Source: Isosphaeraceae bacterium EP7 (GTDB taxonomy: Bacteria > Planctomycetota > Planctomycetia > Isosphaerales > Isosphaeraceae). Taken from it: a stretch of DNA of 64,000 bases. Position numbers and translations under genes: made by a program. Positions 3,162-51,505 of the stretch are shown piece after piece. How positions within the stretch are numbered: the stretch's first letter is position 1; the number at the start of each line of letters is the position of its first letter. The notes beneath the pieces were generated by a model. It searched no databases and was not told the DNA's origin. It saw only the letters and a list, made by a program, of their open reading frames with translations. The stretch lies in assembly GCA_038400315.1 (NCBI GenBank), contig CP151667.1, forward strand, positions 3,545,174-3,609,173, read 5' to 3'.

Positions 3162-3176
3162 CCGAATTGCCAAAGA
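3162..3176 (-). repeat. Downstream box shared by both HGL-family genes (copy 1)
   Basis: Read on the minus strand this is TCTTTGGCAATTCGG, 20 nt past the stop of the HGL-family gene. The second HGL gene has TCTTTGACAATTCGG 31 nt past its stop (51491-51505), 14 of 15 bases identical. It contains a TTGRCA hexamer and may be a regulatory or processing site, or the edge of a duplicated segment. Confidence 0.5.
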
Positions 3177-3196: not shown

Positions 3197-4393
3197 TCAG
3201 CGGGCGGCGAGGGTCAGCTCGCGGATGGCGGCGGCCCGGCGGCTGCGGCGGGCGCGGGCCCGGGGGGTGACGGGGCGGTCCTGGTCCTGGCGGCCTTGGC
3301 GGGGGGCTCGGGCCGGGACGATGGTCTGGATCTGGCCTGCGAGGCGAGCGGTCAGGCCAAAATAGTCGCGGGCGACGGGTTCGAGGGGGGGCGCTTGCTG
3401 CGAGGCGGGCGAGCTGTCGGGCCCCGGTTGGGTTCGTTCTGCCGCGGGGCTCGAACCGCCCGAGTCGGGGCCTTCGGGGGTAGGGTCGCCTTCGAACTCG
3501 CGTGCGGGGCCGCGGACGAAGGTGTGGTCCCTGGGGCGTTCCTGGTAGGAGTGGGTCATCTCGTCGAGCGGGGGCAGAGGCTTGTGGCGGCCCTGGTGGA
3601 GCAGGGCGATGGCCCAGCGCAGGCGGCGGAAGCTGGCGGTCTCGTAGCGCCGGAGCAGGATCAGGGTGGGGTCGTCGACGGCCGAGAGCCCCAGCGTGGT
3701 GGCTTCCTTCTGCTCATCCTCGATGGCGTCGAGGGTCTCGTGCTTGCGTGCCTGCAAGTCGTCGATCTTGTCGGCGACCAGCTCGCGCAGGTGGTCGAGC
3801 AGCAGGACGCCGGCGGCTGGGTCGAGCGGGGTGATGAGGTGGTCGTCCCTGAGGTCCAGCGGGATCCCGAGGAGGTCGAGGGCGAGCTTATTCTGGTCGT
3901 CGGTCCATCCCCCGGCGTGGTCGAGGGCCAGGCCCAGGGCGTCCCAGCGGGCGAGCAGCCAGTCGCAGCCGGGGGCGGTGGAAGCCAGGCGCGGGGCGAT
4001 GACGTCGGGCTTCCTGGGCAGGGCGCGGGCGAAATTGGCGGTCTCGGCCCGGCGCTCGTCGGCCCAGCAGTGGCCGGCCCGGCGGGCTTTAAAGTCGCGG
4101 GCGAGGTGCTCCTCGTTGCGGCAGCGCTCGATCCGGACGGTTTCGGCGGCGACGGTCTCGACCAGGTTCACCTCGAACGCATTCATCGGCCGCAGCGATG
4201 ATTGGAACTGCTCGGCGCGGCGGGCGAAGGCCTCGGCGTCCTGCATGGGATGCAGGGTGGTGGCGGCCAGGCCGTGGACCAGGCTATTCCGGCGCGACTT
4301 CGCCTTGCCCTCCTCGGTCTTCGGGCCGGTGCTGCGCATGGCGTTACGTCGATTGGCCTCGAGCCGCGCGGTGCTGACGATGAGCTTGGTCAT
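3197..4393 (-). CDS. HGL-family protein of unknown function, copy 1
   Basis: A 398-residue protein whose N-terminus holds the hallmark ANRRNAMRSTGPKTEEGKAK followed by SRRNSLVHGL, then SLRPMNAFEVNLVETVA, and a later DDPTLILLRRYETASFRR block; the tail is Pro/Arg-rich and low in complexity. The same blocks occur in the same order in the gene at 50215-51459, so the two are paralogues. The start at 4393 aligns with the paralogue's start, and the GGGAAAGCGACG before it matches the paralogue's ribosome-binding region. No enzymatic motif, membrane segment or signal is seen. Proteins with the NAxxSTGPxTxxGK...HGL motif are widespread, to my knowledge, as uncharacterised families in planctomycetes and acidobacteria. 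Confidence 0.8.
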   Translation of the reverse strand: MTKLIVSTARLEANRRNAMRSTGPKTEEGKAKSRRNSLVHGLAATTLHPMQDAEAFARRAEQFQSSLRPMNAFEVNLVETVAAETVRIERCRNEEHLARDFKARRAGHCWADERRAETANFARALPRKPDVIAPRLASTAPGCDWLLARWDALGLALDHAGGWTDDQNKLALDLLGIPLDLRDDHLITPLDPAAGVLLLDHLRELVADKIDDLQARKHETLDAIEDEQKEATTLGLSAVDDPTLILLRRYETASFRRLRWAIALLHQGRHKPLPPLDEMTHSYQERPRDHTFVRGPAREFEGDPTPEGPDSGGSSPAAERTQPGPDSSPASQQAPPLEPVARDYFGLTARLAGQIQTIVPARAPRQGRQDQDRPVTPRARARRSRRAAAIRELTLAAR

Positions 4394-4464
4394 GGGGGCG
4401 TCGTCGCTTTCCCAGATCGTGGTGTGCATCAAGTGCGCCTCGCCGGCATCGGCGAGCTAGCCTT

Positions 4465-4515
4465 GCTCACGCGACGTCGCGCGAGCGGGGCCTCTCATGG
4501 AGATAATCCTTTTTG
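4465..4515 (-). promoter_or_regulatory. Conserved upstream element of HGL-family copy 1
   Basis: A 22-bp near-perfect palindrome (4465-4486, core CGCGACGTCGCG at 4470-4481, one mismatched pair) sits 71 nt before the start codon. Upstream on the minus strand lie TCTCCATGAGAGGC (4503-4490) and AAAAAGGATTA just before it. The second HGL gene has the same order: AGGAT, TCTCCAATAGAGGC, then CGCGATGTCGCG, with the palindrome 73 nt from its start. It could be an operator or an mRNA leader hairpin. Confidence 0.55.
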
Positions 4516-4751
4516 GACGCGAATTAGTTCTGCCTAAATGGGAAATCTCGCCAAGTATTGGGAAATTTCCCCGCGGGGGCGAGCCCAGAATGAGATGGCA
4601 TCGATGTCTGTGATGTATTTAGACATCTTGTGAGTGCTTGTTTGCTGCTGGCGGTCTAAAATGTGCTATCGATCGGGAGACGACCCGGTGGTACGCTCGC
4701 ATCGCAAGCGTGGCGGCGGGGAGGCGCCCGCCTTTGGATCGGGGATGGGTC

Positions 4752-49882: not shown

Positions 49883-50214
49883 CCTCTCGCTGCAGCGGAC
49901 CCACTCCGCCGCGAGATCCGGCAAGGCTCGACTATGAACGGCGATTTACGATCGTCTCAAAAACGAGCGTTTTTGGGACTCGGCCGGCTTGGCGTTGTTT
50001 TTGTCCGTTTGCTACGGGAAGGCCATTTTGTCGCTCGGGCGGGAGAATTTTCCCATTTTGTCCATTTTCTAGGGAGGGAACGCCCCGTTTTCAGGATAGT
50101 TCTCCAATAGAGGCGTCTCACTCGCGCGATGTCGCGTGGGCTGGGCCACTCCGCCGACGTCGGCGAGAACTCGCACCCCCCTCGAATCCGCACCCCAGGA
50201 AGCGACGCAGCATC
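49883..50214. other. 332-nt leader region of HGL-family copy 2
   Basis: No gene supported. It contains an inverted repeat, AAAAACGAGCGTTTTT near 49959-49974, several TTTTGTCC motifs (around 50000, 50055) and the conserved HGL upstream element at 50093-50141. Confidence 0.45.
50093..50141 (+). promoter_or_regulatory. Conserved upstream element of HGL-family copy 2
   Basis: AGGATAGTTCTCCAATAGAGGC (50093-50114) is followed by the hairpin-forming 50120-50141 (core CGCGATGTCGCG, 50125-50136), 73 nt before the start codon. Order and spacing match copy 1 (71 nt). Here several pairs are G-T wobbles, which favours an RNA hairpin over a DNA operator. Confidence 0.55.
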
Positions 50215-51459
50215 ATGGGCAAGCTCGAAGTCAGCCAGAAGCGCATCGACGCCAATCGCCGCAACGCCATGCGCAGCACCGGGCCGAAGACCGAGGAGGG
50301 CAAGGCGCAGTCGCGCCGGAATAGCCTGATCCACGGGCTCTCGGGCAATGGCGTGGTCGTCCCCGAGCGCGAGGCGCAGGCCGCCCGCGAGCTGGGCGAG
50401 CAGCTCGTCTCGTCGCTGCGGCCGATGAACGCGTTCGAGATGGGGCTGGTCGAGACGATCGCCATCGAAGGGGTGCGGATCGATCGCTGCCGGATCGAGG
50501 AGCGATTGGTGCGTGACGTCCGCGCACGCAGGGCCGGGGCTTGCTGGCTCGATGAGCGCAAGGCCGAGGCGGCGAAGCTGGGGAAGACCCTGGCGGGCAG
50601 TCCCGACGAAGTTGCGTCGCGACTCTCCACCACATCGGCGGGCTGCGAGTGGCTGGGTGTCCGCTGGCGGGCGCTGGGCAAGGTGCTCGAAAAGAAGGGG
50701 TCGTGGAGCGACGAGCAGAAATCGCTGGCCCTTGACCTGATGGGCGTCGCGGCCGAGGTTCGCGCGATGGACAGCCCGCTCGACGCCCCCGAGGGGGTTG
50801 ATGCGGCGATCTATCTTCGAGAACTCGTCGAGTCCGAATTGGAAAGTCTGTCGTTGCGCCAGGAAGAGTCACTCGACGCCATCGACGACGACCTGCGCGA
50901 GGCCACTTCGCTGGGCCTGATCGCCGTGGATGACCCGACGCTGGTGCTACTCCGTCGCTACGAGACGGCCAGCTTCCGCCGCCAGCGGTGGGCGCTGGAC
51001 ATGCTGCACAAGGGTCGCCAGAAGCCGGCGCCCGTCCCGACGATGACCCACGACTACGTCGAGCGGCCCCGCCCGGATTTCTCCGTCTGGGGCGCCCCCG
51101 ATCCGGTCCCGCATGGCGATCACCCCGGGCCAGGCACCGATCCCGACACGACCTCGCCCGGTTCCGATCGGTCCCAGCACGGAACCGATCAGGCGCCGCA
51201 AGCCAACCCCACTCAGCCCGCCGCCTCGAAGCTCCGCGCCGATCGAACCCATCGGGCCACCCCCGGCCGATTGGCGGAACGAAGCCACCTGTCGGGCCTC
51301 TTTCGCCGCCTGGCCCGGTCGCTCGCCGGCCTGAACGTGGGTTGCCTGGCTGTCAAACCGCTTGCAAGGCCCGATCGACGCCGGTCACGGCCCTCGATGG
51401 TCCCGGCCCGGCCGATTCGCCCGGAACTGATCCGCATTCTGGATGCCCCGGCCGCCTGA
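50215..51459 (+). CDS. HGL-family protein of unknown function, copy 2
   Basis: 414 residues, paralogous to the gene at 3197-4393. Shared blocks: IDANRRNAMRSTGPKTEEGK, SRRNSLIHGL, SLRPMNAFEMGLVETIAIEG, the RRAGACWLDERKAEAAKL region, SATSLGLIAVDDPTLVLL-type and RRYETASFRRQRWALDMLHK. The region after residue ~290 is Pro/Asp/Thr-rich and poorly conserved between copies. No known domain, signal or membrane span. AGGAAG lies about 11 nt before ATG 50215. The Arg/Lys-rich N-terminus could bind nucleic acid; this is a guess. Confidence 0.8.
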   Translation: MGKLEVSQKRIDANRRNAMRSTGPKTEEGKAQSRRNSLIHGLSGNGVVVPEREAQAARELGEQLVSSLRPMNAFEMGLVETIAIEGVRIDRCRIEERLVRDVRARRAGACWLDERKAEAAKLGKTLAGSPDEVASRLSTTSAGCEWLGVRWRALGKVLEKKGSWSDEQKSLALDLMGVAAEVRAMDSPLDAPEGVDAAIYLRELVESELESLSLRQEESLDAIDDDLREATSLGLIAVDDPTLVLLRRYETASFRRQRWALDMLHKGRQKPAPVPTMTHDYVERPRPDFSVWGAPDPVPHGDHPGPGTDPDTTSPGSDRSQHGTDQAPQANPTQPAASKLRADRTHRATPGRLAERSHLSGLFRRLARSLAGLNVGCLAVKPLARPDRRRSRPSMVPARPIRPELIRILDAPAA

Positions 51460-51490: not shown

Positions 51491-51505
51491 TCTTTGACAA
51501 TTCGG
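51491..51505 (+). repeat. Downstream box shared by both HGL-family genes (copy 2)
   Basis: TCTTTGACAATTCGG, 31 nt past the stop of HGL copy 2; 14 of 15 bases match the box at 3162-3176 downstream of copy 1. Confidence 0.5.

Follow-up and report, generated by a model that had tools for sequence, protein, structure and literature searches.

The window analysed here (the whole stretch of 64,000 nt, G000:C1:3545174-3609173, from a genome of 7.2 Mb) contains two members of a gene family called HGL below: copy 1 (L018) at 3197..4393 on the minus strand and copy 2 (L001) at 50215..51459 on the plus strand. Both genes are about 400 codons long and encode a conserved basic N-terminus. Upstream of copy 1, on the minus strand, a candidate promoter-like block consists of AGGCAGAAC as its upstream part (4527..4535) and a putative -10-like element, GGATTATCT (4501..4509), which overlaps what an earlier first-pass annotation had called a TCTCC box; the sigma-70 consensus has no match in 4380-4700. 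The leader continues with TCTCCATGAGAGGC (4503-4490) and the palindrome GCTCGCGCGACGTCGCGTGAGC (4486-4465), here called hairpin 1 (loop ACGT), whose single non-Watson-Crick pair is G-T and which lies 71 nt before the ATG at 4393. Hairpin 2 (CTCGCCG-ATGC-CGGCGAG, loop ATGC) occupies 4439..4456. In the leader of copy 2, on the plus strand, AGGGAGGGAA (50071..50080) and GGATAGT (50094..50100) have the presumed roles of upstream part and -10-like element, and they are followed by TCTCCAATAGAGGC from 50101, hairpin 1 as CTCGCGCGATGTCGCGTGGG (50121-50140, loop ATGT), hairpin 2 (50149..50167, inner stem CGCCG-ACGT-CGGCG, loop ACGT) and the ATG at 50215. Strings like AGGCAGAAC were also seen by eye in part of the family's leaders and at two non-HGL loci (L177 and L139).

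The first-pass annotation had described the palindrome and the box as conserved at a fixed distance upstream of both genes, with differences in copy 2 that turn pairs into G-T wobbles. Its reading of the leader sequences at both copies is correct, including the palindrome 71 nt before the ATG of copy 1. From copy 1 to copy 2, one stem pair of hairpin 1 goes from T-A to T-G, the loop has a C to T change, and pairing is lost at the next outer positions. What it overlooked is a second hairpin, a family of 34 copies rather than two, and a boxA after the gene. The palindrome is not rare by itself, and that idea was rejected: the window holds three 22-bp palindromes with at least 10 of 11 pairs, compared with a mean of 2.0 and a largest value of 7 in 40 first-order simulations. 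Its core, CGCGANGYCGCG, is above chance in the window, with six strand matches at four sites (two self-complementary sites being counted twice) against 1.0 expected and 5 in the largest of 100 shuffles. Since the palindrome alone is at chance level, the case for it rests on the family.

A protein search with copy 2 gave 38 matches in its own genome: 34 are close copies (L001-L034), one is another piece of L009 and three are remote relatives (L035-L037), which are left out of the family counts below. The proteins were aligned for 28 of the 34 copies (alignment A1, with L013, L027 and L031-L034 left out). Among 12 hand-chosen pairs dN/dS is 0.09-0.41, and those copies have therefore been kept as proteins. 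The two window proteins have no match in Pfam, NCBIfam or PHROGs, 28 members have only stray matches in Pfam (E 0.058 or worse), and PDB sequences contain no HGL match. An AlphaFold2 model (mean pLDDT 66) predicts an all-helical core and a disordered C-terminus, and comparing it with other structures gave nothing at E 0.001 or better; domain, sequence and structure searches recognised no RNA-binding domain or fold. A phage origin was considered and dropped, as viral contigs were scanned once and no relative was confirmed.

Twin hairpins in the HGL leaders

Alignment of the leaders of all 34 copies shows a common order of elements: a promoter-like block, hairpin 1, hairpin 2 and a conserved AGGAAGCGACGCAGCACC-ATG. 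A loose element of the GGATA/GGATT/AGATT/GGATG type is present in 30 of the 34 (a count without a control). Hairpin 1 can be aligned in 33 leaders, 28 of which form at least five of the six inner pairs, and hairpin 2 in 30, with at least four of the five inner pairs in 27. Neither hairpin is present in L011, and hairpin 2 is absent from L012, L020 and L026; pairing is poor for hairpin 1 in L003, L008, L009, L020 and L031, and for hairpin 2 in L022, L024 and L025. The loop of hairpin 2 ends 44-54 nt before the ATG (30 copies). That of hairpin 1 ends anywhere from 51 to 82 nt before it (median 76, 33 copies), so the distance that had seemed fixed in two copies varies across the family. The TCTCC box had to be given up as a family element: TCTCC occurs in 11 of the 34 leaders, and the full TCTCC-N(2-4)-AGAGG in only 3.

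Both hairpins favour the loop A-N-G-[T/C]. Among the stable tetraloop hairpins of these leaders, 31 of 34 have a loop of this kind, and they are spread over 27 of the 34 leaders; in the controls, random 85-mers from the window gave 2 of 18, and the regions ahead of 22 other ORFs gave 0 of 6. The loop also has a direction. Where it is not self-complementary, hairpin 1 has 19 loops in the ANG[TC] orientation and none in reverse (six are of neither kind), and hairpin 2 has 14 and one, respectively (again with six of neither kind). Eight copies of hairpin 1 and nine of hairpin 2 are centred on ACGT.

Pairing in the leaders exceeds most of the controls that were applied to it. The two-helix structure under test was taken from copy 2, and related sequences may come out above shuffles, a limit on all of the following: standard pairs make up 79.5% of the two-hairpin structure against a shuffle mean of 75.6% (above every shuffle), the covariation score is 0.183 against 0.127 (above 500 of 500 shuffles), and 10 pairs have changed on both sides against 6.1, as many as in 1 of 500 shuffles. 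Slid versions of the structure have 26.6-46.9% pairs and a covariation of at most 0.114, although one of them equals the named structure in both-sided pairs (10), and for cells changed on both sides a slide of +1 to +3 gives 24-25, compared with 23 in the named structure. The hairpin columns are better kept than an 11-column spacer in 8 of 10 hand-chosen pairs, the exceptions being L006/L007 and L002/L004, in which hairpin 1 is less well kept than the spacer. The leader hairpins are likely to be a conserved structure.

Whether that structure acts as RNA is a separate matter, and here the two hairpins differ. At the seven inner pairs of hairpin 1 there are 28 G-T cells against 6 A-C, and on the gene tree 19 exchanges between Watson-Crick and G-T pairs against 7 between Watson-Crick and A-C. 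For hairpin 2 the counts are 7 G-T against 14 A-C cells and 6 against 11 exchanges. Summed over both hairpins, 25 G-T events stand against 18 A-C events and substitutions have no overall strand bias, so that the wobble pairs were not upheld as proof of RNA. The earlier claim that structure is kept at the RNA level therefore divides in two: the hairpin is indeed kept (33 of 34 aligned, 28 well paired), but wobble counts do not secure its action as RNA.

The annotation had also proposed a covariance model of the family leaders. This model returns the 34 leaders, which were its own input, and one doubtful further place (E 0.22) about 1.5 kb upstream of L034, with 150 of 16528 first-look candidates scored; as far as the search reaches, the full leader is therefore tied to HGL genes. 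Neither the window nor any of 20 chosen loci has a match at or above the gathering cut-off of an Rfam family, in agreement with the first impression that no known riboswitch fits.

The 18 nearest genomes all belong to the same taxonomic family as the genome studied here. HGL matches are numerous in five related genomes: 42 in G001, 26 in G007, 25 in G003, 24 in G008 and 12 in G016. With a profile built from the own-genome copies, these matches reach at most 228 bits versus 417-584 for the 34 close copies, and the genes in the relatives would appear to stem from separate expansions. A profile search of the loci showed that the relatives' leaders differ in sequence from those of the own genome. 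Folding energy relative to shuffles, calculated for the 57 of 59 relatives' leaders with enough upstream sequence, has a mean z of -1.93 in G001 (n=9) and -1.24 in G003 (n=13), with other stem sequences, compared with -1.87 for the own leaders (n=34); the leaders of three relatives have no surplus of structure, with means of -0.26 in G016 (n=5), -0.13 in G007 (n=10) and -0.09 in G008 (n=20), and the means are -0.03 and -0.34 for the controls (random window sequence, n=60, and upstream of other ORFs, n=22). Tetraloop hairpins occur in 0 of 10 leaders in G007 and 1 of 20 in G008. The ANG[TC] loop accounts for 3 of 11 stable tetraloops in G001, 2 of 6 in G003, and 1 of 1 in both G008 and G016. 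By eye, the core CGANGTCG recurs in several G003 and G016 leaders within different stems. From this comparison the hairpin leader belongs to some lineages and not to the whole HGL family. Members without the hairpin had been named in advance as what would count against its conservation; outright this applies to one of the 34 own copies (L011), and most leaders in G007 and G008 lack it as well. Among loci with a named source, five have a related gene, and two of these come from Tautonia sociabilis, an Isosphaeraceae member; a survey of the phylum found a match in at least 3 of 294 genomes (own genome included), a lower bound because at most six candidates were scored per genome.

The rRNA boxA after HGL stop codons

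Copy 2 is followed by TCTTTGACAATTCGG (51491..51505, plus strand; C1:3596664-3596678), which is identical to the boxA before the genome's own 16S rRNA; it is presumed to be boxA from that place and from known boxA sequences. Copy 1 is followed by the boxA-like TCTTTGGCAATTCGG, with 14 of 15 letters (3162..3176, minus strand; C1:3548335-3548349). Within 100 nt after the stop, 24 of the 34 copies have at least 11 of the 15 boxA letters (all 15 in nine of them), 23-59 nt past the stop codon, and the reversed control finds 0 of 34; the other 10 copies have no boxA within that distance. The own genome has 32 matches to the pattern TCTTTGRCAATNCGG (reversed control 0), which by position are divided into eight in the four rRNA operons, 16 within 100 nt after HGL stops, four further after HGL genes (204-968 nt) and four elsewhere. 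A shorter form, TCTTTGRCAAY, occurs 50 times against three for its reversed control. The post-stop motif is, in other words, identical or near-identical to the boxA of the same genome's rRNA operons, and an rRNA boxA here stands outside the rRNA operons and after a stop codon.

In five related genomes a script did not find the boxA pattern after HGL stops; a 16S gene was found in 1 of 5 and 3 of 4 of the relatives' genomes in two lookups. By eye, strings of the ATTGGCAATT type follow the stop in two G001 loci (L104 and L106). HGL loci in G003, G007 and G008 (for example L125, L114 and L082) have GATCGCGGTGCGCGC, or part of it, in the place of boxA, and a string like GATCGCGGTGCGCGC is also present in the Tautonia leaders L148 and L150. 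In a Bryobacter MAG with 16 matches (seven of which gave no reading), the stop of the HGL gene L152 is followed at about 18 nt by a boxA-like TCTTTGACAACTGAAT, with two AACGAANCC motifs ahead of it. The paralogue nearest to L152, L153, has the weaker CCTTGAAAATTGAAT. The other seven readings from this MAG have no such string, three of them being without downstream sequence.

A second element lies within the genes: 28 of the 34 copies carry the decamer AACGAANCCA towards the end of the ORF. Near the 3' end of the ORF the window genes carry AACGAACCCA (copy 1, 3429..3438, minus strand) and AACGAAGCCA (copy 2, 51278..51287, plus strand). A third copy of the decamer in the window is at 1869-1878 on the minus strand, about 1.3 kb after HGL copy 1. 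Genome-wide, AACGAANCCA has 241 copies against 14 for the reversed control, and it exceeds this control in 18 of 18 members of the taxonomic family, from about 1.5-fold (G003) to about 100-fold (G014). An excess, mostly 1.5- to 4-fold, is also seen in 11 genomes outside that family, and the reversed control is therefore not neutral. Elsewhere in the genome the decamer is repeated in tandem, the period being 24, 25 or about 41 bp; periods of 25 and 41 place neighbouring units in different reading frames.

A linked set of loci forms what is, judging from the sequence, a seemingly intergenic or noncoding family. Fourteen loci (L137, L138, L140-L144, L172, L174, L178, L179, L043, L044 and L046) were picked by eye from 24 for showing a common block, GCCGGTTTTC...GCAACT, followed by boxA, so the block common to them is no independent count. 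In 13 of the 14, AACGAANCC comes after boxA, at some loci in tandem arrays of the periods just given: boxA thus stands ahead of this motif, whereas in HGL units it stands after the ORF. A conserved hairpin before boxA was rejected for this set, as the best stem is clearly beyond shuffles in three loci only (L140, L143 and L179; mean 5.36 against 4.84 over the 14). At L177, L139 and L145 an HGL-type promoter block was seen by eye with no HGL match there; at L177 a hairpin and boxA come right after it.

Possible readings of the hairpin leader

The family of 34, the second hairpin, the shared oriented loop and the rRNA boxA after most of the genes are solid observations that go beyond the first-pass annotation, and some 34 copies that mostly have two 5' hairpins and a 3' boxA suggest a common control of HGL genes. 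The reading favoured here, tentatively and as something short of probable, is that the hairpins are a lineage-specific pair of 5'-UTR sites at which one RNA-binding protein controls the expression of HGL. We infer the transcription of the hairpins, their binding by a protein, the identity of this binder and the direction of its effect: the promoter-like block would give an mRNA that starts with two short GC-rich hairpins with A-N-G-[T/C] loops in the same orientation, both would be bound as a pair by one RNA-binding protein (plausibly itself from the basic, helical HGL family, in autogenous control), and binding would tune translation or stability of the HGL copies together. The conserved consensus AGGAAGCGACGCAGCACC-ATG downstream of the hairpins is the ribosome-binding region.

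What appears to favour RNA over DNA is mainly the orientation of the loop and its position after the promoter-like block, and both bear on the idea that the palindromes are instead operators at the HGL promoters, bound by a dimeric repressor. GC-rich palindromes that adjoin a promoter-like block would suit a repressor, as would the hairpin 2 exchanges, where A-C is at least as frequent as G-T (11 versus 6 events), and the ACGT-centred copies (eight and nine) are DNA palindromes at their centre; however, the remaining loops run in one direction (19:0 and 14:1), and the element follows the -10-like block, a position open to an operator but one in which it would be transcribed as well. A DNA operator is unlikely. 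Another view gives the hairpins no specific ligand at all: stem-loops near a 5' end could shield the mRNA from decay. They are placed where the 5' end would be, and the G001 and G003 leaders are structured with other stem sequences, as mere protection would allow, but conservation of the loop in the own genome goes beyond what stabilisation as such would require, and protection by itself seems unlikely.

Two further readings draw on the unit as a whole. HGL loci could be copies of a dispersed element of about 1.5 kb with the hairpins in its left part and boxA at its right end; in favour are the 34 copies here and the many matches in related genomes (42, 26, 25, 24 and 12 in five of them). Of the 45 best pair rows, 14 begin at -163 to -175 of the ATG and 11 end at +55 to +95 of the stop; across the same 45, however, the start of similarity varies between -24 and -450 and its end between -458 and +196, and no transposase, which a transposon end should have beside it, was found with Pfam, NCBIfam or PHROGs. 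Hairpins that mark the end of a mobile unit are accordingly quite doubtful. The rRNA boxA repeated after 24 of 34 HGL genes, and standing ahead of AACGAANCC repeats in 13 of the 14 chosen noncoding loci, might instead suggest a nut-like unit in which leader hairpins and boxA load a Nus-type antitermination complex on HGL transcripts. This is very improbable: the boxA comes after the gene, over 1 kb away from the hairpins, and a hairpin before boxA clearly exceeds shuffles in only 3 of the 14 noncoding loci.

In a wider scheme, a dispersed RNA network might have borrowed the rRNA antitermination signal, with the HGL genes (hairpin leader, AACGAANCCA towards the ORF end, boxA) and the boxA-AACGAANCC array RNAs as its coding and noncoding arms, HGL proteins reading A-N-G-Y hairpins, the repeated motif or both, and the array RNAs serving as decoys; this scheme is speculative and quite improbable as a whole. 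For a large unannotated gene family, the oriented twin-hairpin leader in most of 34 paralogues provides a testable handle, and it opens the question of HGL function and of what reads the leaders. Open-licence literature yielded no description of the HGL leader element or of a boxA after a stop codon, which in both cases is weak evidence of absence.

Comparison with known systems

The mRNAs of ribosomal proteins have autogenous leader hairpins, in which the gene's own product binds a stem-loop of the leader. HGL leaders may be alike in the putative binding of a leader stem-loop by their own product; they differ in that some 30 paralogues would share the site. Insertion sequences of the IS200/IS605 group have subterminal imperfect hairpins. 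HGL units resemble them in being dispersed and in carrying, towards one side, imperfect hairpins whose loop has an orientation, but they differ in that no transposase domain was found with Pfam, NCBIfam or PHROGs and the units have no fixed ends.

A further comparison is with structured leader RNAs that comparative genomics has put forward as candidates (PMC2864571). Like HGL leaders, these include small conserved hairpins upstream of one gene family; unlike them, HGL leaders are defined among the paralogues of one genome, belong to a gene family without annotation and gave no match to Rfam in the window and the 20 chosen loci. For boxA, the comparison is with boxA-regulated genes outside rRNA such as suhB, with boxA in the 5' UTR (PMC5725501). 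These genes and HGL are alike in having a copy of the rRNA boxA within a protein-coding transcription unit (PMC5725501), and the HGL boxA is, from its sequence, a putative NusB/S10 site. The placement sets them apart: boxA of suhB is in the 5' UTR (PMC5725501), whereas that of HGL comes after the stop codon of a multi-copy gene whose leader has separate hairpins of its own.
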